Assembly (NCBI RefSeq): GCF_038593265.1
Contig: NZ_CP151979.1
Location: 2,308,001-2,372,000 of the forward strand
Length of the DNA: 64,000 bases
Direction: 5' to 3'
DNA from: Ureibacillus sp. FSL W7-1570
Lineage (GTDB): Bacteria; Bacillota; Bacilli; Bacillales_A; Planococcaceae
Within the stretch, counting starts at the first letter, position 1, and each line of letters opens with the position of its first letter. The translations under genes were made by a program, and so were the position numbers. The notes beneath the pieces were generated by a model. It worked only from the letters and a program-made list of their open reading frames with translations. It did no database searches and was not told the origin of the DNA. Positions 51,079-64,000 of the stretch are shown one piece after another.

Positions 51079-51187
51079 AAAATTACCTTTTCATATTTAC
51101 ATTATTTCAACGATTTTTTCTCATGATAAAAGGGGAATCATTCCTGATTTAGCTGCAACAAAACCCATTGGAAAGGAAGTCTTGTAT

Positions 51188-51715
51188 ATGGAAAAATTAG
51201 AAAAAAGCGCAAGCACAAAAATGTCGCCTACATTGGTGGAAGCATTGAACGACCAAATGAATTATGAGTTTTATTCTTCCCATGTCTACCTTGCGATGGC
51301 TTCTTATTGCGAAAGCCAAGATTATAATGGGTTTGCCAAGTTTTTCTTGGAACATGCAGAAGAAGAACGAGCGCACGGAATGAAGATTTACAAATATCTT
51401 CATGATCGCGGCGAACAAGCGATTATTACAGGTTTCGGCAATCCAAACAACGAATATGAATCCGTACTGGATGCCTGCGAAAAAGCTTTGGAACATGAAA
51501 AAGTGGTAACAAGCAGATTTTATACTCTTTCAGACATTGCAGACAGCGAAAAAGAATATACAACAACAACTTTCTTAAAATGGTTCCTTCAAGAACAAGT
51601 GGAAGAAGAGTCTTTATTTGAAACGGTTGTACAAAAATTGAGACGCATCAAAGACGATGAAACCGCACTTTTCATTTACGATATGCATATCAGCCACGGG
51701 GAAAATGCGGAGTAA
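51188..51715 (+). CDS. Ferritin (bacterial non-heme)
   Basis: 175 residues from the ATG at 51188 (GGAAAGGAAG about 9 bases before; a TTG at 51182 is too close). Four-helix bundle with the ferroxidase residues: Glu in DQMNYEFYSSHVYL, EExxH in AEEERAHGMKIYK, Glu in the segment starting CEKALEHE, and QEQVEEESLFE. Oxidises and stores iron as a 24-subunit shell. Its position after the Fur-box gene makes an iron-handling locus. Ends at a strong terminator. Confidence 0.95.
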   Translation: MEKLEKSASTKMSPTLVEALNDQMNYEFYSSHVYLAMASYCESQDYNGFAKFFLEHAEEERAHGMKIYKYLHDRGEQAIITGFGNPNNEYESVLDACEKALEHEKVVTSRFYTLSDIADSEKEYTTTTFLKWFLQEQVEEESLFETVVQKLRRIKDDETALFIYDMHISHGENAE

Positions 51716-51808: not shown

Positions 51809-51956
51809 TCAGTTGTTCTCCGTCAATTTATTTCGCATTTGAGCAGCTGCGGAAAGTGCCACTTTGTCTTGTAATATTTCTCCTGGTTTATTTCCATTTC
51901 CAAGAATATATCCGGCAAATTCAATTCCCATAAAATCAAAAATGTATTGGAATTGC
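51809..51956 (-). pseudogene. 3' remnant of an NAD(P)H-dependent FMN reductase gene
   Basis: On the minus strand the sequence continues from the IS21 boundary as LQQFQYIFDFMGIEFAGYIL, then GNGNKPGEILQDK and ends NKLTENN then TGA. This is the C-terminal part of a flavodoxin-fold NADPH-FMN reductase. The 5' part is cut off by IS21 element 1, and it is not found on the other side of the element, so it was lost. Confidence 0.7.
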
Positions 51957-52094
51957 TGTAAACGCTAAACTAGAATTAACAGTTTTCCACAAATAGAACT
52001 CAACAGAATTCCCCAAATAAGATTAAACAGTTTCCCCACCATCAATCACTTTCAAATATACTGTTACTAGTCTATTGAAAGTGAGGAATTAGGA

Positions 52095-53639
52095 GTGAAC
52101 AGATTTATGCTTTACATCGAGATTCATCGTTTATACAAAGAGGGATTCTCCAAGAGTGCTATTGCAAGAAAACTAAATATTTCAAGAAATAGAGTGATAG
52201 ATTATTTGAATATGAGTACTGATGAGTTTGAAGAATTTTTAAGTACATTACGTACAAGAGAAAAGAAACTAGACCCTTATCATGATCAAATTCTAGGGTG
52301 GTTGAAGGAACATCCTGATTTAACTGCTGCACAAGTTTATGATTGGTTGGAAGAAAAGTTAGGTTTCAGGGAAGTCGCTGAGAACACTGTACGAAATTAT
52401 TTAAACGAAATGAGGGATTACTATCGGATTCCAAAGGTAAAGGTTCAGAGGACATATAGTGTAGTTCCAGAATTACCAATGGGAAAACAGGCTCAAGTGG
52501 ATTTTGGACAAACTACCGTCAAAAACAGACAAGGTGAGAATAAAAAGTTGTATTTTATCGCATTTGTTTTATCACATTCAAGATATAAATATGTAGAATG
52601 GCTCGATCGACCTTTTCGTACTTCCGATATGATTCGAATGCATGAAAATGCATTTGAATACTTTGGAGGAATGCCAGAAGAAATGGTCTATGACCAAGAT
52701 GCGTTATTAGCAGTTAGTGAAAATGCAGGTGATTTAATTCTTACAGCTGAATTTACTAAATATCATCATACCCGTAAATTTAATGTTTATTTATGTAGAA
52801 AGAGTGATCCGGAATCAAAAGGTAAAATTGAACAGGTTGTGAAATTTGTAAAAAATAATTTTAGCAAAAATCGAGTATTCGATCATCTTTCAGATTGGAA
52901 TCAATCGTGCCACGCTTGGTTGAAAAGAACAGGAAACTATAAAGTTCATCATAATACGAAAAAGAGACCTTCTGAAGTGCACGCCCTGGAAAAGCAACAC
53001 TTAAAGAAAGTCTCTGGTACTTACATTTTCGCAAATGTTTCAACTCCAAGTATAACAAGAAATATCCATAAGGACAATGTTATTCGTTATGAAGGAAATC
53101 GATATAGCGTTCCTAAAGGAACATATAGAGCAGATGCCCCAAATCTTGCTTATTTACAAGAAGAGGATGGTTGGTTAATTATTCGACTGAAAGAAACTGG
53201 GATGGAGTTAGCAAAGCACCGAATATCCGAAGGAAAAGGATTGATTATTACAGATCCCTCCCATCGGGAACATAGCACAAGTAAACGAGATCTTTTAATT
53301 CATCAAATTCAAGAAACATTCATAGATAAAGAGAATATTCAATGGTTAATACACAAATTGAAAGAACGATATCCACGTCATTTAGTGGATCAACTCAAAG
53401 TACTACAACAAGCCATCAGAATTTACCCAAATCATTGTGAGGAAGCTTTATCTGAAATGAAGAAACTTGGAATGACCAGTGCAAATGATTTTCGGGATAT
53501 TGCACATGCATTATCTGTACAATATCAAAAAAGTTCACCTAAAATCGTTGAATTGAATGAGAAGTATAAAGATTTATCAGCACCAGAACGATCCGAAGAC
53601 ATTTATTTAAAAGTCTTATCTGGAGGTGAAAATGAATGA
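52095..53639 (+). CDS. istA: IS21-family transposase IstA
   Basis: 514 residues from a GTG at 52095 (GAGG eight bases upstream). N-terminal helix-turn-helix (EGFSKSAIARKLNISRNRVI) and DDE core with QVDFGQTTV, YDQDALLAVSENAGDL and the C-terminal SKGKIEQVVKFVKNNF. Complete. It is related to, but clearly distinct from, the IstA of element 2. Confidence 0.94.
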   Translation: MNRFMLYIEIHRLYKEGFSKSAIARKLNISRNRVIDYLNMSTDEFEEFLSTLRTREKKLDPYHDQILGWLKEHPDLTAAQVYDWLEEKLGFREVAENTVRNYLNEMRDYYRIPKVKVQRTYSVVPELPMGKQAQVDFGQTTVKNRQGENKKLYFIAFVLSHSRYKYVEWLDRPFRTSDMIRMHENAFEYFGGMPEEMVYDQDALLAVSENAGDLILTAEFTKYHHTRKFNVYLCRKSDPESKGKIEQVVKFVKNNFSKNRVFDHLSDWNQSCHAWLKRTGNYKVHHNTKKRPSEVHALEKQHLKKVSGTYIFANVSTPSITRNIHKDNVIRYEGNRYSVPKGTYRADAPNLAYLQEEDGWLIIRLKETGMELAKHRISEGKGLIITDPSHREHSTSKRDLLIHQIQETFIDKENIQWLIHKLKERYPRHLVDQLKVLQQAIRIYPNHCEEALSEMKKLGMTSANDFRDIAHALSVQYQKSSPKIVELNEKYKDLSAPERSEDIYLKVLSGGENE

Positions 53640-54391
53640 ATCATCATCCCTATGAAATTTTACAAGATAAATGTCGTACCTTGCGCCTCGCTGAGACGGC
53701 TAAAGAATTACCGAATTTACTCCGTGAAGCTGAAGCAAAGAATTGGACATATCATGAACTGGTTTATGAAATCTTAAGCTATGAGATGCGATGTAGAGAG
53801 CAGAAAAATAATGAGAGATTAATGAAATGGGCAGAGTTCCCAGAAATATTGACGTTTGATACCTATGATTTGAAGGAACAAACAGCTCTTGGTGAAAAAC
53901 AACTAAATGTATTAAAAGAACTGAATTGGATTGAAGAATTTTTTACTTTAATTTTGATGGGACCAACAGGAGCAGGAAAAACACATTTATCCGTTGCATT
54001 AGGAATACACGCTGTGGAGAGAGGATACAAAGTATCCTTTGTCTCCATGAATCAGCTTATGTATATTTTAAAAACAAAAGAATATATCAATAAATCTAAA
54101 ATACGCTACAAACGTATTATAGCTTCGGATTTAATTATTATTGATGATGTCATGTACATGACTTACGAGACTCAGGAAGCCAATCTATTTTTCCAGTTTA
54201 TCTATGATTTATATGATAAAGCAGCATTCATTCTAACCTCTAATAAAGGGCCAAATGAATGGGGAAAATTTCTTGGTGATCCTACTTTAACAACAGCTAT
54301 ACTTGACCGTTTATTACATAGGAGTGAAATTATCACTTTCGATAACGAAACGGATAGCATTCGTATGAAATACAGAAAGGTATTATTTTAA
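53636..54391 (+). CDS. istB: IS21-family helper ATPase IstB
   Basis: 251 residues, AAA+ helper protein: N-terminal helical domain, Walker A MGPTGAGKTHLSVALG, Walker B DLIIIDDVMYM, sensor ILTSNKGPNEW. Starts inside the istA stop (ATGA). Promotes target capture by IstA. Confidence 0.94.
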   Translation: MNHHPYEILQDKCRTLRLAETAKELPNLLREAEAKNWTYHELVYEILSYEMRCREQKNNERLMKWAEFPEILTFDTYDLKEQTALGEKQLNVLKELNWIEEFFTLILMGPTGAGKTHLSVALGIHAVERGYKVSFVSMNQLMYILKTKEYINKSKIRYKRIIASDLIIIDDVMYMTYETQEANLFFQFIYDLYDKAAFILTSNKGPNEWGKFLGDPTLTTAILDRLLHRSEIITFDNETDSIRMKYRKVLF

Positions 54392-54458
54392 TTTAGCAAA
54401 CTGTTGAATCTTAATTGTAGAAAACTGTTTAAAATTATTTGTGGAAAATTGTTTAATT

Positions 54459-56225
54459 CTACTTGACGGTTACAACATCAGTATTAACTCTTCCATTTAA
54501 TAATATTAAAGCACTTGCTACTACCTTGTCGGGAAAAGGGAATCCTAAATTCTTTTTATTTAAATAATCAGTTACATATTTCCATATATGACTATAGTAG
54601 TTTGTAATATCACCACTCACATATTTTTCATTTAAAATCCTTTTAAAATCTTCAATTGTATCACAATATTTAGCTTCTTCTATTGCAAATGCTACTGATA
54701 AATTATTCCCTTGTGTTTTTTCATAAATAAATTCCGATAAAACATTAATATTTATATCTAGTTTTATCCCCTTTTGAGTCAACAACACTTTAATATCTTC
54801 TTTTAAGAGAGGGGGCATATGAAAATGCGCTACATATTCTGTTTCTGTTTTTAACCAGATTGGATATTGTTCATATAATTGAGCTGGTTGACCTACAATT
54901 ACAAATACTACACCTTCTGGAATTTCATCAGGACTGAATAAGCTATGTAAAAAAGTTATCTCATTATTTGCTCTCGCTGCATGGTCAATACCATCTATAC
55001 ATATGATTACTTTTTCACCTGTTTTTTTATTTAATAGCTCCGCTAAACGAATTACTTCCTTTCTCATCTGTTCAACAGAACATAATGCGTTAGTAACAGG
55101 AATATTATATTTATTCAACTCTCCTTTAAAATACCTTCTTAACTGAATCAATAAATCATTCCATAAAGATTTAGGCTTACATAACCCCGAATCAGCATTG
55201 TAAAATCTTTGTTCAGGAGAAATAGGTTTAAAAGTATGATATCTAGCTTTAAAAAGTTTATTATTTAATTGCAAATAACTAATTAGGCTAGTTTTTCCAC
55301 TACCCGGATCACCGGATATCCATACTACTTTCTGATCGTTCTCTTTTATATATCTAATTAAATTATTAGCAAATTCTTGACGGCTTTTAAAAAAAGGCAT
55401 TGGATAAGGTAATTCATGCTCCCCATGCTCTTTATCATAATTTAGTGATAAAGCATCAAATACGTCTTCAATTGTTACTTTTACTTTATCTTTCCTTCTA
55501 GTAGTTGTCCAAATCCTCAGATTAGAACAAAGCTTATCAAATAAACCTCTTGCTACCATTAGATTACATTTAAATGTATCTTGTAATGATCTAAGCATGG
55601 AATTTTCTAATTCCTCTAATGAACCTTCATTACTTCTAATTACAACTGATTTTAAAAAATCTAATACTAAGGAGTCGTCACCTATTGATGCTTTAAATTC
55701 ATTCCACTGAACCTTTAAATCTCTATCATCAATTAATCTATCAATTTCTGCTATAGATTTTGATTGTTCTACATATGATTTTATTTTTCGTATGAATTCC
55801 TCTAACGATATAGCTCTATACCTTTCACCATCAAAGGTTCGTGTTGTTCTATTTACCCCTAATTTTCTATTAGTATATAAGACTGGCGTAATAGTCTTAC
55901 CCTCTTTTTCTCGAGCATCTTTCCAACCAATAGCTAAAGCTCTTATTAAACTCATCTTAGTACTTCCACTTTCCCTAATGGTTGTTTCTATTAATTTTGA
56001 AAACGTAAGATTTCCCTTCCCTGCATCTCCAACTTCATGCTTAACTTGAAAACATACTTCTTCCTGATTGCCAATTCCAACAACTACATCGTCTATCGTA
56101 TTATGAACTTCTGATTGAAAAATTACATATGAAATATTGCTATCTGGGTTAATCATTTCTATAATTCTTTCTAAACCTACATACCATTCATACCAGTATG
56201 GATCTCCAATTCCCGGCGTCGACAT
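54459..56225 (-). CDS. Nuclease-STAND NTPase, Avs-like antiviral protein, C-terminus lost to IS21
   Basis: 588 residues from ATG 56225 (GGAGGG upstream). N-terminal PD-(D/E)xK nuclease-like domain: SEVHNTIDDVVVG and VCFQVKHE (about 38-64), as in Cap4/Mrr-type effectors. Then a STAND/NACHT-like ATPase with Walker A SGDPGSGKTSL (304-314), Walker B VIICIDGIDHAAR (406-418) and VVFVIVGQP. Avs proteins continue with a long C-terminal sensor, usually to well over 1000 residues. Here the frame ends DVVTVK then TAG, and these last codons lie in the right end of IS21 element 1, so the natural 3' end is gone. Probably non-functional. Confidence 0.75.
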   Translation of the reverse strand: MSTPGIGDPYWYEWYVGLERIIEMINPDSNISYVIFQSEVHNTIDDVVVGIGNQEEVCFQVKHEVGDAGKGNLTFSKLIETTIRESGSTKMSLIRALAIGWKDAREKEGKTITPVLYTNRKLGVNRTTRTFDGERYRAISLEEFIRKIKSYVEQSKSIAEIDRLIDDRDLKVQWNEFKASIGDDSLVLDFLKSVVIRSNEGSLEELENSMLRSLQDTFKCNLMVARGLFDKLCSNLRIWTTTRRKDKVKVTIEDVFDALSLNYDKEHGEHELPYPMPFFKSRQEFANNLIRYIKENDQKVVWISGDPGSGKTSLISYLQLNNKLFKARYHTFKPISPEQRFYNADSGLCKPKSLWNDLLIQLRRYFKGELNKYNIPVTNALCSVEQMRKEVIRLAELLNKKTGEKVIICIDGIDHAARANNEITFLHSLFSPDEIPEGVVFVIVGQPAQLYEQYPIWLKTETEYVAHFHMPPLLKEDIKVLLTQKGIKLDININVLSEFIYEKTQGNNLSVAFAIEEAKYCDTIEDFKRILNEKYVSGDITNYYSHIWKYVTDYLNKKNLGFPFPDKVVASALILLNGRVNTDVVTVK

Positions 56226-56265
56226 TTTATCCCTCCGAAGGTATCTTATTTAATCATTTTTAAAC

Positions 56266-56322
56266 AAATTACACCATAATATACAAGCTGTATATACTAG
56301 ATTTTATGTTATGGTGTAATTT
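56266..56322. promoter_or_regulatory. Inverted repeat in the avs-like gene leader
   Basis: Perfect 14-bp arms AAATTACACCATAA (56266-56279) and TTATGGTGTAATTT (56309-56322), with an inner palindrome TATACAAGCTGTATA. It is 41 bases upstream of the gene start and has no terminator-type T-run, suggesting an operator, possibly for autoregulation. Confidence 0.5.
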
Positions 56323-56499
56323 ACCATTGTATTTTATTTTACCTGTTAAAAGTTTAAATACCCGTATTTAATTCACCGTCATACTATTGTAAACGATAAA
56401 ATAAAATCAACAGATTCCGCTCATTTGGATTGAACACTTTTTCACTATCAAATACACTTCTAATAAACTAGTTTATTAAGTTTATTGGAGGTTGTACTA

Positions 56500-58044
56500 G
56501 TGGAGGAGAAGCTTGTGTTATATATTGAAATCCATCAATTACGTACTAAAAGATTGCGAATTTCACAAATCGCAAGGAAATTGAAAATCTCACGTAATAC
56601 AGTTTATAAGTATTTAAATATGACATTTGAAGAAGCGGTGGAGGAGTTTGGCACGATTGAGCGAAAGAAAAAGTTAGATCCCTATCGGGATTGGATTGTG
56701 ACATGGTTACAAGAAAATCCAAGCATGAGTGGAGCACAAATTTTGGACTGGCTTCAAGAAAAGTTTCCTGACTTACAAGTTGGAGAAAGTACAGTTCGTC
56801 GGTATGTCAAAGAGATGAGAGAAATTTATCAAATTGAAAAAACGGATGAACCCCGAGAACATGAAGCTGTTGATGAATTACCACCAGGAAAACAAATGCA
56901 AGTAGACTGGGGACAAACCATTCAGAAAACAATAGATAATAAGGACATCAAACTTTATTTTATTGCCTTTGTATTATCTCACTCTCGACAAAAGTATATG
57001 GAATGGCAAGACCGCCCCTTTACAACCAAAGACACCATTCGTTGTCACGAAAATGCCTTTAGATATTTTGGGGGAATGACTGAAGAAATTGTTTATGATC
57101 AAGACAATCTTATTGCGGTAAGCGAAAATGCTGGAGATCTTATCTTAACAAAGAAATTTCAGGCATATGTGAACGAACGTAAATTTCAGATTTACCTATG
57201 TCGAAAAGCAGATCCCCAATCGAAAGGAAAAATTGAGAACGTTGTGAAATATATCAAGTATAATTTCGCAGCACATCGTATCTTCTCAACAATCGGAGAT
57301 TGGAATGAAAAAGCCTGGAATTGGCTAGAACGTACTGGGAACTATAAAGTGCATCAAACAATAAAAAAGAGACCTTACGAAGTGTATCAACTGGAAAAGA
57401 AACACTTACGAAAGATCTCCTCACCGCTTTCTTTAACAGAAAGCAACCCTATTGAAATTATAACAAGGAATGTGAATAAGGACAACACGATTCGTTACAA
57501 ATCGAATCGCTATTCAGTACCTATCGGCACATATACGAAATGCCCTACAGTGAATCTGCAAATCAATAATGAAAAATTAATCATCATAGAACCTACAACT
57601 GGTGAAATACTTGCCAAGCACACGATAAGTTTAGAAAAAGGAAAGCTAATTAAAAATACGAATCATGCACGAGATCATACAGAATCGCTTGATATGCTTA
57701 AACAAAGAGTGCTTCATTTATTTCCTACTGGAGAAGCATCGAGACAATATATTGATGAAATCTGCCAGAGATATAAGCGCTATCGCCGTGATCAATTACT
57801 CATTTTACAAAGGGTTGCCGAAAATGATCCTCATTGGATTCCAATGGCGTTAGAGAAATGTATCCGTGAAAAACTGTATAGTGCAAATGCTTTTCAAGAT
57901 GTCGTAAATTACTTAAAGCTACAAGAATCTAATCCCATTCTTGAAATACAGGTCAATTCTACTAAACTTGTTTCTTCGATAGCTGTAGAAACAAGGGATT
58001 TCAATACATACATTCAAAGAATGGGAGGAAAAACAAATGAATAA
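56500..58044 (+). CDS. istA: IS21-family transposase IstA
   Basis: 514 residues from a GTG at 56500, 8 bases after TTGGAGG. Same architecture as the copy in element 1: helix-turn-helix LRISQIARKLKISRNTVYKY, DDE core QVDWGQTIQ, YDQDNLIAVSENAGDL and SKGKIENVVKYIKYNF. Complete. Sequence divergence from the first IstA shows two different IS21 species. Confidence 0.94.
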   Translation: MEEKLVLYIEIHQLRTKRLRISQIARKLKISRNTVYKYLNMTFEEAVEEFGTIERKKKLDPYRDWIVTWLQENPSMSGAQILDWLQEKFPDLQVGESTVRRYVKEMREIYQIEKTDEPREHEAVDELPPGKQMQVDWGQTIQKTIDNKDIKLYFIAFVLSHSRQKYMEWQDRPFTTKDTIRCHENAFRYFGGMTEEIVYDQDNLIAVSENAGDLILTKKFQAYVNERKFQIYLCRKADPQSKGKIENVVKYIKYNFAAHRIFSTIGDWNEKAWNWLERTGNYKVHQTIKKRPYEVYQLEKKHLRKISSPLSLTESNPIEIITRNVNKDNTIRYKSNRYSVPIGTYTKCPTVNLQINNEKLIIIEPTTGEILAKHTISLEKGKLIKNTNHARDHTESLDMLKQRVLHLFPTGEASRQYIDEICQRYKRYRRDQLLILQRVAENDPHWIPMALEKCIREKLYSANAFQDVVNYLKLQESNPILEIQVNSTKLVSSIAVETRDFNTYIQRMGGKTNE

Positions 58045-58786
58045 AAGTGTTCCAGAAATTCAACAAGCCTTTAAACAATTGAGATTATCCGAAACAGCGG
58101 AGGAGCTCCCAGAGCTCCTTCGGAAAGCAGAGCAATCATCTTGGACATATTTAGAGTTCTTAGAACAGATAACTACGTATGAACTAAAAAGACGTGAGGA
58201 GAAAAGTATTGAAAGACGAATGAATTGGGCTCGTTTCCCGTTCTATAAACCTTTAAGTATGTTTAATATAGATGAGCAAACAGCCATTACAGAGCGGCAA
58301 TTAAGGCAATTACGTGAATTTCAATGGTTAGAACAAGCATACAACTTAATATTACTTGGACCACCTGGAGCGGGAAAAACTTTATTATCCGTTGGCCTTG
58401 GAATTGAAGCGATTCAAAAAGGCTTTCAAGTGTATTTTGTGACCATGGGGGAATTAATTCAGCTATTAAAAACAGAAGAATATGTCAATAAGTCAAAAAC
58501 TAAGTTAAAGAGACTGCGTGCATCAGATCTTGTGATAATTGATGATGTCATGTATATGGCAATGGATCAACGAGAAGGCACATTGTTCTTCCAGCTTATT
58601 CATCAATTATATGAACGAAGTTCGTTAATTTTAACATCCAATCGAAGCCCAGAACAATGGATAGAACTCGTAGATAATCCAGGGATGATGACTGCAATAC
58701 TTGACCGTCTGTTACATCGAGTTGAAGTGATTCATATGAACAACGAAAGTTACCGATTAAAACATCAAGAAACAATTTTTTCTTAG
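58037..58786 (+). CDS. istB: IS21-family helper ATPase IstB
   Basis: 249 residues. Walker A LGPPGAGKTLLSVGLG, Walker B DLVIIDDVMYM, sensor ILTSNRSPEQW. Overlaps the end of istA. Complete. Between the right end of the element and the Mrr-like gene (58848-59033) I see no gene. Confidence 0.94.
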   Translation: MNKSVPEIQQAFKQLRLSETAEELPELLRKAEQSSWTYLEFLEQITTYELKRREEKSIERRMNWARFPFYKPLSMFNIDEQTAITERQLRQLREFQWLEQAYNLILLGPPGAGKTLLSVGLGIEAIQKGFQVYFVTMGELIQLLKTEEYVNKSKTKLKRLRASDLVIIDDVMYMAMDQREGTLFFQLIHQLYERSSLILTSNRSPEQWIELVDNPGMMTAILDRLLHRVEVIHMNNESYRLKHQETIFS

Positions 58787-59033
58787 CAAAAAGTGTTCAT
58801 CCGAAATGAGCAAAAATTGTTCATTTGGGGTTGACGTTTACAACTATAACCTACCAAATCATGCCATATTGGACCGAACCTTACCTTTTTAACCTATATC
58901 ACCTAACTGGATGACTAGTAAAACTTCTAATAAATTCACTAATTTGCATAAAATCCTCTTTTCTAACTATTTTTAGAAAATCCTATTACAGATCAACTGA
59001 AATCTAGTTAATAGAAGATATATTTTTCAAGAC

Positions 59034-60059
59034 CTATTCTACTTCATTATCCAACATCCATACTCTTTTGATAGGAATCTCTTTTTTAATTTCATCACTT
59101 AATTTTTCATAGTTCTCGAAAATTTGTTGAATAATGGTTTTTGAATCCCAAAGGCGAACTTTGAAAAATTGCTTTGGTATTTCTTTGGTGACAGATGATT
59201 TAAAACCGCTCCATGAAACTAGCAAGCCAAAATCTGCACTATAATTGCTCATTGTACCTATCAACTGATCTAATGTCGGTCTATCAAGAGGAGTATCAGA
59301 AGTCTTGACTTGGACACAAATTTTTGGATTTCCAAAACCTAACGTATCTGAAGCTGCTAATATATCCACACCGTGATCTGCACCTTCTGGACTTCTGTAA
59401 GTAGTAAAGCCTTTTGCTTTCAAAATTTCTTCAATTAAAATTTCCATCTTATGTCCTTTAAAACGCTGTATAATTCTTTCAGAAATTTGATCGTATATAT
59501 ATTCTTCTAAATCTATTGAAACTGTTTCTTCATTTTCCTCTACTAGTTCCTTTACATTTTTATTTTTTGGTACATGCCAATTATTTTTACGCATTTCTCT
59601 AATACGCTCTTCAGCATTATTTCTGTGTATTTTACAGACCGTCATAAAGGCTCCTAATGAATACAATATATCCTGATCAAATCGATCCCTTGGTATATCT
59701 TTAGCAATCCAATTTACATTCCGGTAATGATAATACGGACTGCCAAGTGACTCATCATATACATAGTCACCGATAACTTCCCCTATATGTATGGTGCGAT
59801 TAAATTTTGAAGGCAAGACTACTAAATCTCCTTGCTCCATTGCATGTGCAATTGGCCAAATTTGAGAAGCCCAGTTGATCGCTGTTTTTTCTTTATCTAA
59901 ATCATAGTGTTCGATTAGTCGTTTATATAAATCCTCTTTGGAAGTAATCTCTTTTAGATTAATATTTAAATCATCCCAAGTAAGATATACCCTTCCATCT
60001 TCTAAAAATTTGTTTTCGAACTCCCCTTGTTTTCCTGCACGAAATAACCAAACAGTCAT
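59034..60059 (-). CDS. Mrr-like restriction endonuclease
   Basis: 341 residues, AAAGGAG upstream. N-terminal domain (1-150) with DLVVLPSKFNRTIHIGEVIG, a barrel resembling modified-base reader domains; a linker; and a C-terminal PD-(D/E)xK domain (190-310) with GADHGVDILA and ICVQVKTSD, the catalytic Asp, Gln-Val-Lys of Mrr. Mrr proteins cut DNA with modified bases. It follows hsdR by 104 bases on the same strand beyond a terminator, consistent with a defence island. Confidence 0.85.
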   Translation of the reverse strand: MTVWLFRAGKQGEFENKFLEDGRVYLTWDDLNINLKEITSKEDLYKRLIEHYDLDKEKTAINWASQIWPIAHAMEQGDLVVLPSKFNRTIHIGEVIGDYVYDESLGSPYYHYRNVNWIAKDIPRDRFDQDILYSLGAFMTVCKIHRNNAEERIREMRKNNWHVPKNKNVKELVEENEETVSIDLEEYIYDQISERIIQRFKGHKMEILIEEILKAKGFTTYRSPEGADHGVDILAASDTLGFGNPKICVQVKTSDTPLDRPTLDQLIGTMSNYSADFGLLVSWSGFKSSVTKEIPKQFFKVRLWDSKTIIQQIFENYEKLSDEIKKEIPIKRVWMLDNEVE

Positions 60060-60163: not shown

Positions 60164-63100
60164 TTAAACTTCATATTCACCTTTAGATTCCGCAGCCTGC
60201 AGCGTATTCCAATCCCTTACTTCTGTATGCTCCGCCATCAACTCTGCTTGACGCATAACTGTGTCCAATGCCTTTTTCGCTTGTTCTGGTGGGTAATCGT
60301 ATTTCTTCAATAGTCGCTTAATAATTCTCCTCATTCCTGCACGGGCGCTTTTTCGGACATGCCAGTCAATGGTCATGTTCCGTCTAATTGCTTGAGTCAG
60401 TTCATTGGCGATTTTACGTAAGACCTCATCTTCCATTAACTCTTTAACTATAGACTCAGATGTTAAAGCATCGTAAAAGGCAATTTCATCTTCATTTAAA
60501 CCGAGATCTTTTTCTTCTTCTCGTTCTTTTTTCATGTCCTTTGCCATTTGAATTAGTTCTTCGATTACTTCGGCGTTTGTAATGGCTTGGTTTTTATATT
60601 TGTTCAGCGACTGTTTCAGTTTTTCCGAGTATTTTTGGGATTTGACAAGGTTGCGTCTTTCCATTGTTTTGATGTTGCCTTCCAGCAATTTTTTAAGCAT
60701 TTCAAAGGCTAAATTTTTATATTCATATGAACGTACTTCTTCGAGAAATTCTTCCGATAATATAGATACATCAGGATGCTTCAATCCCATCACTTCAAAT
60801 ACATCCACTACTTCTTCTGAAATAATGGAACGTTCGAGTAATTGATTAACGCGTGCTTCGATTTCTTTTTTCGTCTTCCGCTTCGGCTGTTTTTCTTGAA
60901 GTTTATTAAGGCTTGCCTTAACTGCTTTAAAATAACTAACTTCAAGGGCTGCTGCTTTTCCTTCATCTGTCGCTGCACATAGTGAATGCGCCTTCGCTAG
61001 CTCGGTTGCCGTCTTTTTGAATTCTTTTTGTTCTTTTTCACTCTTTCCAAAAATGACATTCATTCCGCCAGTGATGGCACGAATACGTCCTGCTTGAGAT
61101 GAACCCATATAAGCAGAGTAATCAAACCCATGCATCATATCTTGCAGGATTTCAAGTTTCTCTTTCATCACAGCAATTGCAGCCGATGTATCGATACCCG
61201 TTGTTTTCTTATCACTTTCGGTATATTGATTTAAAGCTTTCTTTAAGCTTTCTAAAATCCCAATATAATCTACAACTACTCCACCTGATTTATCTTTAAA
61301 TACACGGTTTACCCGTGCGATTGCCTGCATGAGGTTATGACCCTTCATCGGTTTATCGATGTACATCGTATGCATGGAAGGTACGTCAAATCCAGTCAGC
61401 CACATATCACGTACAATGACGATTTTTAGTTCATCATTATTATCTTTCATTCTTTTTGCCAATAAATCCCGCCTTTTTTTTCCACCAATATGCGGCTGTA
61501 AGAAATCATCATCCCCAGCACTCCCTGTCATGACGACTTTAATTTTACCTTTATCGTCATCATCGGAATGCCAATCTGGACGTAATTTGACAATTTCGTT
61601 ATAAAGTGCGACACAAATACGGCGACTCATACAAACAATCATTGCTTTTCCGTCAATTGCTTTTGCCTTTTCTTCGTAATGATGAACAATATCTTTGGCT
61701 AATTGTTTGATCCGGTTAGGTGAACCGACGATGGCTTCAAGCCTCGACCATTTTGATTTATACTTTTCACGTACTGATTCTTCCTGATCTTCAGTAATCT
61801 CTTCAAATTCCTCATCGATCTTCGCTAATTCTTCTTCATTGGCTTCCAAGCGGATAATACGGTTTTCATAATAAATTTTTACCGTTGCTTCATCTTCCAC
61901 AGCTCTTGTCATATCATAAATATCAATATAATTACCAAAAACGGCAGGCGTTGACTTATCTTCCAGCTCAATCGGTGTTCCTGTAAAACCGATAAAGGAA
62001 GCATTCGGAAGTGCATCGCGAAGATATTTTGCATATCCATATTTCACTTCGCCTGTTTTGGTGTCAGTCTTTGCAGAAAAACCATATTGACTGCGATGGG
62101 CTTCATCGGCAATGACGATCACATTTTTACGATCGGTTAAAACCGGCATTTCGCCATCTTCCGGTTTGAACTTTTGAATCGTTGTAAAAATAATACCGCC
62201 TGATTCCCGGTCATTTAGAAGATCATATAATCCGTTTATCTCTTTGGATTTTTCGTTGGCTTGTTGTTTTTTCTGTTCTTCATTCAATTTGCGGACATCT
62301 GCTTGTTTCGGTGTTTGTCTTAAAATATCCTTTGATTTTGAAAACGTCGAAAATAACTGGTCATCTAGATCGTTGCGGTCAGTAATTACTACAATAGTTG
62401 GATTATTTAGCTGCTTGACAAGCTGTGCTGTATAAAAAACCATCGAAAAACTTTTACCCGAACCTTGTGTATGCCATATAACACCGATTTTACGGTCGCC
62501 ATTCTCACTGGTCGCTATTTTTGTCTTTTCCACCGCTTTTTTTACCGCAAAATATTGGTGATAGGCAGCGAGAATTTTGGCAATCGTTTTTCTTTCGCCG
62601 ATTTTCTTCCCATTTTCATCTCGTTCTTCTTCTTTGGATTCCTGAAAGAGAATAAAGTTTTCAATAATATCAATAAGCCGGTCTTTTGCCAGCATCCCTC
62701 TTAACAACACTTCATATTGCGGCACTTCAAGTGGTTCAATGTTTTCCCCATCCACCGTCCGCCAATTCATAAAACGTTCTTGACTTGCAGTAATCGTTCC
62801 CGCTTTCGCATTAATTCCATCAGATAAAATACAAAACGCATTATAATAAAATAAAGATGGAATATCACGTTTATACGTTTGAATCTGTGCATAGGCATTA
62901 TCGATACTCACATTTTCATCAGATGCTGATTTTAATTCGATAACGACGAATGGGATGCCATTTATAAAAATAACTAAATCCGGGCGGCGTTCTTCTTTTT
63001 CAACGACCGTAAACTGATTTACTACCAAAAAATCATTATTAGCTGGTTCTTCAAAATCAATCAAGAATGCCTTCATCGAACGGCTATGACCATCTTGATG

Positions 63101-63412
63101 AAACGACACATCAATGCCTTCAGTGATTAATTTGTGAAAATGACGGTTGTTTTCTTCTAAGCTTGGACTATTAAAAGCTATAATTTGCCGAAATGCTTCT
63201 TCTATTGCTTCGTGTGGCAAATGGCGATTATGTTTAAACAAAGCATCTTTTACACGGTCTTCTAAAATAACAGTACGATAATCTTTGCGTTCCGGTCTTT
63301 CCCCATCGCAACTAATATCCGGTCCAAAGACATAGTCATAGCCAAGCTCTTGAAGAATCTCAATCGCCGCTTCCTCCAGTTTATCTTCCGTAAAATTTTC
63401 TAAAAAACTCAT
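60164..63412 (-). CDS. hsdR: Type I restriction enzyme R subunit
   Basis: 1082 residues from the ATG at 63412 (GGGGAGAGGAGA upstream); an earlier ATG at 63445 lacks similarity. N-terminal nuclease domain with [20 protein letters not shown] (PD-ExK), then SF2 translocase motifs: Walker [14 protein letters not shown], motif [16 protein letters not shown] and [12 protein letters not shown], motif [12 protein letters not shown], motif [11 protein letters not shown]. It cuts DNA after translocation once HsdS/HsdM bind an unmodified site. All motifs intact. Confidence 0.96.
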
Positions 63413-63452
63413 TCTCCTCTCCCCTTTCGAAACGGGATATGACATTTATTCT

Positions 63453-64000
63453 TTAATTTTGTTCTGATAACACTTCATCATCCAACGGGACACGGATTTC
63501 TCCGGACAATAATCTTGGTAAAAGGGTGTCACGAATAGCTTTTAACCTTTTATTTTCCTTCTCCAAATACTTGTTCTTTCTGATTAAAGGCCTAATTAAC
63601 TCAGTAAATTTTTCTATTAAACAATTACTAGGTATCGCTAACTTATAGGCTTTCAAATCCCTCATTCGTACTCCTTTTTGTACACTTCCACTTGCTAGTT
63701 GCTGTGCATACCCTTGTAATTGTTCACTTAAAAGTAGCAGGTATAGTATCTCAGAAGAAATTAATTTTGATGGCCTTAATGTAAAAATCGATTCACTTAT
63801 ATTCCAATTTTCGGGTGTTTCATCTATTAAATATACCCTTCCAATAGTACCAATTCCTGAAAATAATAAATCACCTTTTTTCAAATCTGATCTTTTATTA
63901 ATTTTTTTAATTGCATCATTATCAATCTTGTCACACTTGTCGTCTAAATAAATTTGATTATTCCCCATATTTTTTATTGTGACATAATAATTTTCACCTT
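63453..64000 (-). CDS. hsdS: Type I restriction enzyme S subunit, C-terminal part
   Basis: The frame is open to the window edge, so the gene begins outside; the ATG at 63968 is internal, because the upstream codons read GENYYVTIKN in continuity. The visible about 180 residues are the end of a target recognition domain (DLLFSGIGTIGRVYLIDETP) and the conserved coiled coil LIRKNKYLEKENKRLKAIRD ending in TLLPRLLSGEI, typical HsdS. Specificity cannot be read. Gap of 40 bases to hsdR, so hsd genes share a transcript; hsdM presumably lies upstream outside the window. Confidence 0.92.
   Translation of the reverse strand, partial: GENYYVTIKNMGNNQIYLDDKCDKIDNDAIKKINKRSDLKKGDLLFSGIGTIGRVYLIDETPENWNISESIFTLRPSKLISSEILYLLLLSEQLQGYAQQLASGSVQKGVRMRDLKAYKLAIPSNCLIEKFTELIRPLIRKNKYLEKENKRLKAIRDTLLPRLLSGEIRVPLDDEVLSEQN

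Follow-up and report, generated by a model that had tools for sequence, protein, structure and literature searches.

The stretch of DNA analysed here, hereafter the window, comprises 64,000 nucleotides of the Ureibacillus sp. FSL W7-1570 genome (contig NZ_CP151979.1, positions 2,308,001 to 2,372,000). Near its end, an open reading frame for an Avs-like protein lies between two mobile elements which are assigned to the IS21 family by the sequence-only reading and by their two-gene layout and their ends (Table 1). The start codon ATG of the frame is closely preceded by a GGAGG ribosome-binding site. An inverted repeat at 56266-56322, between the Avs-like gene and element 2, has arms of 24 nt (56266-56289 and 56299-56322) that are 88% complementary and separated by a 9-nt spacer; it is possibly an operator. 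A weaker 12-nt repeat occurs upstream of the related gene in Oceanobacillus limi (L002 7928-7979), and no comparable inverted repeat was found upstream of the one in Bacillus sp. V5-8f.

Table 1. Features of the Ureibacillus locus and complete relatives of the Avs-like protein (positions refer to the window unless a locus is given).
Feature	Position	Strand	Details
Ferritin gene	51182-51715		named by eye
Oxidoreductase C-terminal remnant, at the other end of element 1	51809..51956	-	48 residues and stop
IS21-family element 1	51957..54474	+	2518 bp, TGTAAACG...GGTTACA, no target-site duplication
Avs-like open reading frame	54459-56225	-	588 aa, uninterrupted
Final codons and TAG, from the right terminal repeat of element 1	54459..54474	-	
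Native remainder of the Avs-like gene	54475..56225	-	nuclease domain, STAND ATPase, start of likely winged helix
Remaining upstream region of the Avs-like gene	56226..56387	-	GGAGG ribosome-binding site and inverted repeat
IS21-family element 2, upstream of the Avs-like gene	56388..58842	+	perfect 5-bp target duplication ACTAT
Mrr-type restriction endonuclease	59034..60059	-	Pfam Mrr_cat; PADLOC candidate defence family PDC-S02, 512 bits
Type I restriction subunit HsdR	60164..63445	-	1147 bits
HsdS	ends at 63453, start beyond the window end		open frame of 426 codons
rlmH	G000:C1:2375676-2376179 (own genome)		named by eye
Complete relative, Oceanobacillus limi	L002 8001-13898		1965 aa
Complete relative, Bacillus sp. 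V5-8f	L003		1966 aa
Complete relative, Clostridium MAG	L004		1965 aa
Complete relative, Herbinix MAG	L005		1953 aa
Complete relative, Leptospira interrogans plasmid			1963 aa
Complete relatives, three further genomes			1606, 1989 and 1984 aa

Beyond element 2, HsdS is adjoined by HsdM, which completes a type I restriction-modification system. Together, the broken receptor gene, the PDC-S02 gene and this system form a defence island, situated between the ferritin gene and rlmH, which are about 16 kb apart (G000:C1:2359715-2375676, in the window from 51715 onward). In the congener G252 (L033), the same two genes are separated by 52 bp and the interval is empty. In staphylococci, rlmH is the attachment gene of SCC elements; a search of the window for an SCC-type attachment repeat derived from the 3' end of rlmH gave no match with up to 3 mismatches. 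A frame beside rlmH (L043:3202-3804) resembles by eye the C-terminal part of a large serine recombinase, an identity that is not claimed here, as the frame has no Pfam match.

The sequence-only reading had described the protein as a PD-(D/E)xK-like N-terminus followed by a STAND ATPase, in an Avs-like layout, and this is borne out by PADLOC, Pfam and the conserved motifs. Profile comparison of the 588 residues with PADLOC models gave LmuA from the N-terminus (E 4.3e-12, residues 12-357) and Avs1b on the ATPase (E 1.2e-16, residues 278-550), and the Pfam families NPHP3_N and AAA_22 matched above their cut-offs. Residues D45, D46, Q60 and K62, which are likely to represent the nuclease signature, are invariant in all eight aligned relatives and kept in the window protein. 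The same holds for G305, P307, G308, G310 and K311 of Walker A and D411 of Walker B, located in the motifs SGDPGSGKT and ICIDGID of the window protein. For the related protein of the Clostridium MAG, PADLOC reported SAVED_PDDEXK (E 2.9e-5). The Avs1b match recurs for two relatives (L019, E 1e-12; L020, E 6.8e-12), each time with the ATPase alone, and is absent at E 0.1 for the intact proteins of O. limi, the Clostridium MAG and the Herbinix MAG. In the intact O. limi protein a match to the winged-helix family PF25521, below its cut-off, spans residues 569-639, so that the window gene stops inside a likely winged helix. Of the features that define Avs proteins in the broad sense, the N-terminal effector domain and the central STAND ATPase are thus present in the window protein; the large C-terminal sensor was found neither in the window gene nor elsewhere in the genome, and is present in the eight complete relatives.

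The structure model of the window protein reached a pLDDT of 77.6, with values below 50 over residues 565-588. Foldseek returned 359 PDB matches with E up to 0.001, and CED-4, the NRC4 resistosome, the Apaf-1 apoptosome and Cap4 (6wan, rank 31) are found among the top 50, with low TM-scores; general AAA+ ATPases occupy the first ranks, ahead of the STAND proteins. In a tree of the ATPase region, the window protein groups with those of O. limi and Bacillus sp. V5-8f (support 0.996), and this group is split from Avs1b and other nuclease-STAND proteins (0.998).

The 3' end of the gene is formed by the mobile element. Native DNA accounts for 583 codons and two bases, while the stop codon TAG (54459-54461), the four codons before it and one further base are DNA of element 1, whose limits follow from its inverted terminal repeats and from comparison with further copies in the same genome. 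The native frame is open right up to the first base of the element, with no DNA in between. Compared to the closest complete relatives about 1380 residues are gone, which shortens the gene by approximately 70%. The intact O. limi protein matched the window's own one-contig genome with residues 1-593 only, and the family profile built on the C-terminal 1200 residues found no match there; the lost 3' part is therefore gone and not relocated. Hence the earlier claims that the TAG lies in the terminal repeat of element 1, that the 3' end was replaced by the end of an IS21 element and that no continuation exists beyond it all held, the far flank being occupied by the oxidoreductase tail and both searches of the genome being empty beyond the native part.

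Genes on both sides of element 1 are cut. A congener has a 190-aa homologue of the oxidoreductase, from which the gene was named by eye; residues 133-178 of this homologue align here at 50% identity. Element 1 contains two open frames (52095-53639 and 53636-54391) and is found at seven other places in the genome, as one near-complete copy, one split copy and otherwise fragments. These copies are 99.8-100% identical to it, and the split one is interrupted by about 1.5 kb with a 22-bp overlap; element 1 has spread and been broken recently. On plasmids, element 1 had no match. No target duplication was detected at element 1, even with the ends shifted by up to 4 bases, in contrast to the 5-bp duplication at element 2, which is 1.9 kb away. 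Since both flanking genes are cut and the duplication is missing, a deletion is more probable here than a simple insertion. The near-complete and the split copy elsewhere also show no target duplication by eye, so that its absence at element 1 deserves limited weight. A deletion with its edges at the IS21 element would have removed the region encoding the sensor and a portion of the winged helix, together with the N-terminal coding portion of the oxidoreductase gene, either by recombination between two copies of element 1 or by an element-driven adjacent deletion.

Intact relatives were sought with six exact peptide patterns in 84,980 species genomes, a scan which finds close relatives only. 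It delivered 18 candidate stretches and six relatives, four of them complete at 1953-1966 aa. The two closest ones, from O. limi and Bacillus sp. V5-8f, are 87% and 86% identical to the window protein over its 583 native residues. Close homologues that also end near residue 580 had been named as evidence against a truncation, and none was seen: the eight complete relatives measure 1606-1989 aa and not one of them ends near residue 588. Left out of this count are L007 and L023, which run off their contig ends, and L006, regarded as incomplete because its 269-aa frame stops 20 bases before the contig end.

In the taxonomic family of the window genome, three of 261 genomes match, its own included; the two others hold distant proteins, with 24 and 32% identity in the ATPase region, one of which belongs to a true Avs1 system. 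A sample of the phylum gave six matches in 398 genomes, again including its own, with three members of the group and two distant proteins. With the sensor profile, two of 398 genomes in a class sample matched, and in both a nuclease of the same kind precedes the sensor; one of three genomes of another class matched too. Among 72,556 plasmid records 17 match, 11 from Leptospira and six distant, whereas none of 50,697 phage records does; viral contigs contributed one relative (L023). The known hosts are Bacillota (Oceanobacillus, Bacillus), Leptospira plasmids and four MAGs labelled Clostridium, Herbinix, Tenericutes and Melainabacteria. The family is sparse, yet found across these hosts. Genes which by eye resemble Gabija, Septu and CBASS components stand beside three relatives. 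Downstream of the Clostridium relative (L004:12629-15911), frames were noticed that by eye are similar to CBASS nucleotidyltransferase, E1/E2 and JAB genes; no separate CBASS effector is among the frames listed there.

The lost part can only be studied in the intact relatives. For the C-terminal approximately 1200 residues of three of them, PADLOC, Pfam and NCBIfam reported nothing significant that has a name, and the same was true for three more relatives (PADLOC and NCBIfam) and the Leptospira protein (PADLOC). Searches of PDB sequences with three profiles and one single protein gave no Avs chain at E up to 1. At the sequence level the sensor is less conserved than the core: in comparisons of the O. 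limi protein with the two distant complete ones of the Clostridium and Herbinix MAGs, identity per 100-residue block is 14-42% over residues 801-1965 versus 34-66% over residues 1-600. A model of residues 766-1965 of the O. limi protein is weak (pLDDT 55, pTM 0.38). Out of 608 PDB matches of this model in Foldseek (E up to 10), the top two are chains of the Avs3-terminase complex 8dgc (E 1e-5 and 2.7e-5), with low TM-scores of 0.23 and 0.16, followed by a karyopherin (3.8e-4). This gives a hint, from a predicted fold, that the sensor is Avs3-like and perhaps terminase-reading; a generic match between long solenoids is a possible source of the hit. Because Avs3-terminase chains come first, a distant Avs3-like sensor is favoured over a wholly new one. 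The sequence-only reading had raised the possibility of a new Avs class defined by the lost sensor. This idea agrees with the absence of significant named matches by sequence and is weakened by the low-confidence fold comparison, which ranks Avs3-terminase first. That the intact relatives represent a separate class, namely a Cap4-like nuclease-STAND receptor with a sensor of about 1200 aa lacking detectable sequence kin, is a tentative proposal that we consider rather doubtful. If it were true, the sensor may respond to a phage protein that has so far not been recognised as a trigger of Avs.

The Avs models which were tried do not cover the family: Avs1b alone matches, weakly, and with the ATPase only. 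Like the family, Avs3 combines a nuclease with a STAND ATPase. With 2028 aa in the structure bound to the terminase of phage PhiV-1 (PDB 8dgc), it is close in length to the intact family at 1965 aa, and the top two Foldseek matches of the weak sensor model point in the same direction. However, an eight-sequence profile of the family found no Avs3 chain among the PDB sequences at E up to 10, and the window copy is devoid of a sensor. The likeness to Avs1b consists of the STAND ATPase and the total length of the intact forms. In profile-profile comparisons, the family core aligns with a group of one Avs1b and two nuclease-STAND proteins (probability 99.8, ending at residue 722) and with another nuclease-STAND pair (99.7, ending at residue 729), whereas the family sensor does not align with the Avs1b group. 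Furthermore, Avs1b has its own N-terminal protease and the partners Avs1a, a nuclease, and Avs1c, while the window protein carries the nuclease at its N-terminus. No partners of the Avs1a or Avs1c type were seen among the neighbouring frames in the window. Membership in Avs1 was rejected, as a nuclease replaces the protease and these neighbours are missing. For contrast, a true Avs1b in the genome G185 (L022) of the same taxonomic family scores 1131 bits with PADLOC and 1100.9 with NCBIfam (cut-off 1500); there, Avs1c is above its cut-off and an upstream frame resembles by eye an Avs1a of the MBL type.

With Cap4 and LmuA the family shares the N-terminal nuclease domain, as seen in the LmuA, SAVED_PDDEXK and 6wan matches. 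Cap4 is gated by a SAVED domain that binds cyclic nucleotides; in the intact family, the STAND ATPase stands in its place. Avs2 and Avs5 follow the common Avs plan of effector, STAND and sensor. Both were rejected as assignments, the NCBIfam model being above its cut-off in none of six genomes for Avs2 and in none of ten for Avs5. For Avs5, this plan is likewise described in PMC12931631. Among the literature matches listed for Avs-type systems, no title and no opening of an abstract names the family, and a search for literature on inactivated defence islands yielded no match.

Taken together, the open reading frame is very probably the 5' third of a once approximately 1965-aa Avs-type receptor gene whose sensor was deleted at the IS21 element, which would make it a recent pseudogene. 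The gene might also have been fragmentary before the element arrived as a bystander. Such a history would fit the occurrence of several incomplete copies of element 1 in the genome, as well as the differing gene content between ferritin gene and rlmH in this genome and a congener; against it, the native frame is intact to the first base of the element with no DNA between, and we regard this course of events as unlikely. A functional 588-aa product, such as a nuclease acting without its sensor or an inhibitor of other defence proteins, would agree with the open frame, the ribosome-binding site and the absence of decay. In the 583 aligned codons, dN/dS is 0.119 versus O. limi and 0.151 versus Bacillus sp. 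V5-8f, values that by themselves cannot separate a recent loss from a lasting role of the truncated protein. Codon changes found only in the window gene number 42 synonymous and 15 non-synonymous, compared to 58 and 30 in O. limi and 39 and 34 in Bacillus sp. V5-8f. Since the remaining codons reveal no decay and no sign of relaxed constraint, the truncation would be recent relative to the divergence from these two relatives, and the loss of the 3' part indeed looks recent. Such a recent loss explains the absence of decay equally well. Moreover, the cut falls inside the likely winged helix, model confidence drops over the last residues and every complete relative has at least 1606 aa, which leaves little room for a functional short product.

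Doubt of a different kind concerns the family as a whole, which could consist of STAND regulators without a role in phage defence. The Pfam matches are to general ATPase families, and STAND proteins such as MalT, which provide a precedent, regulate transcription according to PMC10427625. On the other hand, the nuclease motif is conserved in the relatives, PADLOC matches defence nucleases and Avs1b, restriction genes adjoin the window gene, and the Gabija-, Septu- and CBASS-like genes beside three relatives belong to the same picture. A purely regulatory role is hardly credible on this evidence.

In the best explanation, the intact architecture combines a Cap4/LmuA-like PD-(D/E)xK nuclease with a STAND ATPase that includes a winged helix, followed by a large sensor of mainly helical structure. 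Avs proteins form oligomers. In the intact relatives, the sensor would bind a conserved phage protein, by analogy with Avs3 the large subunit of the terminase, and the STAND ATPase would subsequently oligomerise driven by ATP. The clustered nuclease domains could then become activated and cleave DNA, and the infected cell would die. In PMC12931631, Avs1-4 are stated to use nucleases and to recognise terminase, portal or another phage protein, and a link between Avs1 and terminase is given in PMC12799240. The window copy, having no sensor, would have no trigger and would thus be a remnant; judged from its sequence, it most likely cannot sense phage and is a pseudogene.

The window copy is best read as a recently disrupted Avs receptor from a branch that has no name and is perhaps Avs3-like. 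In this strain, an immune receptor would have been lost recently at a mobile element, which is an ordinary event, and related bacteria keep the gene whole. The family behind this copy matters more than the copy itself, being an under-described branch of Avs that deserves a name. The fold hint predicts that its members sense phage terminase; if this is wrong, another phage trigger would be in play.
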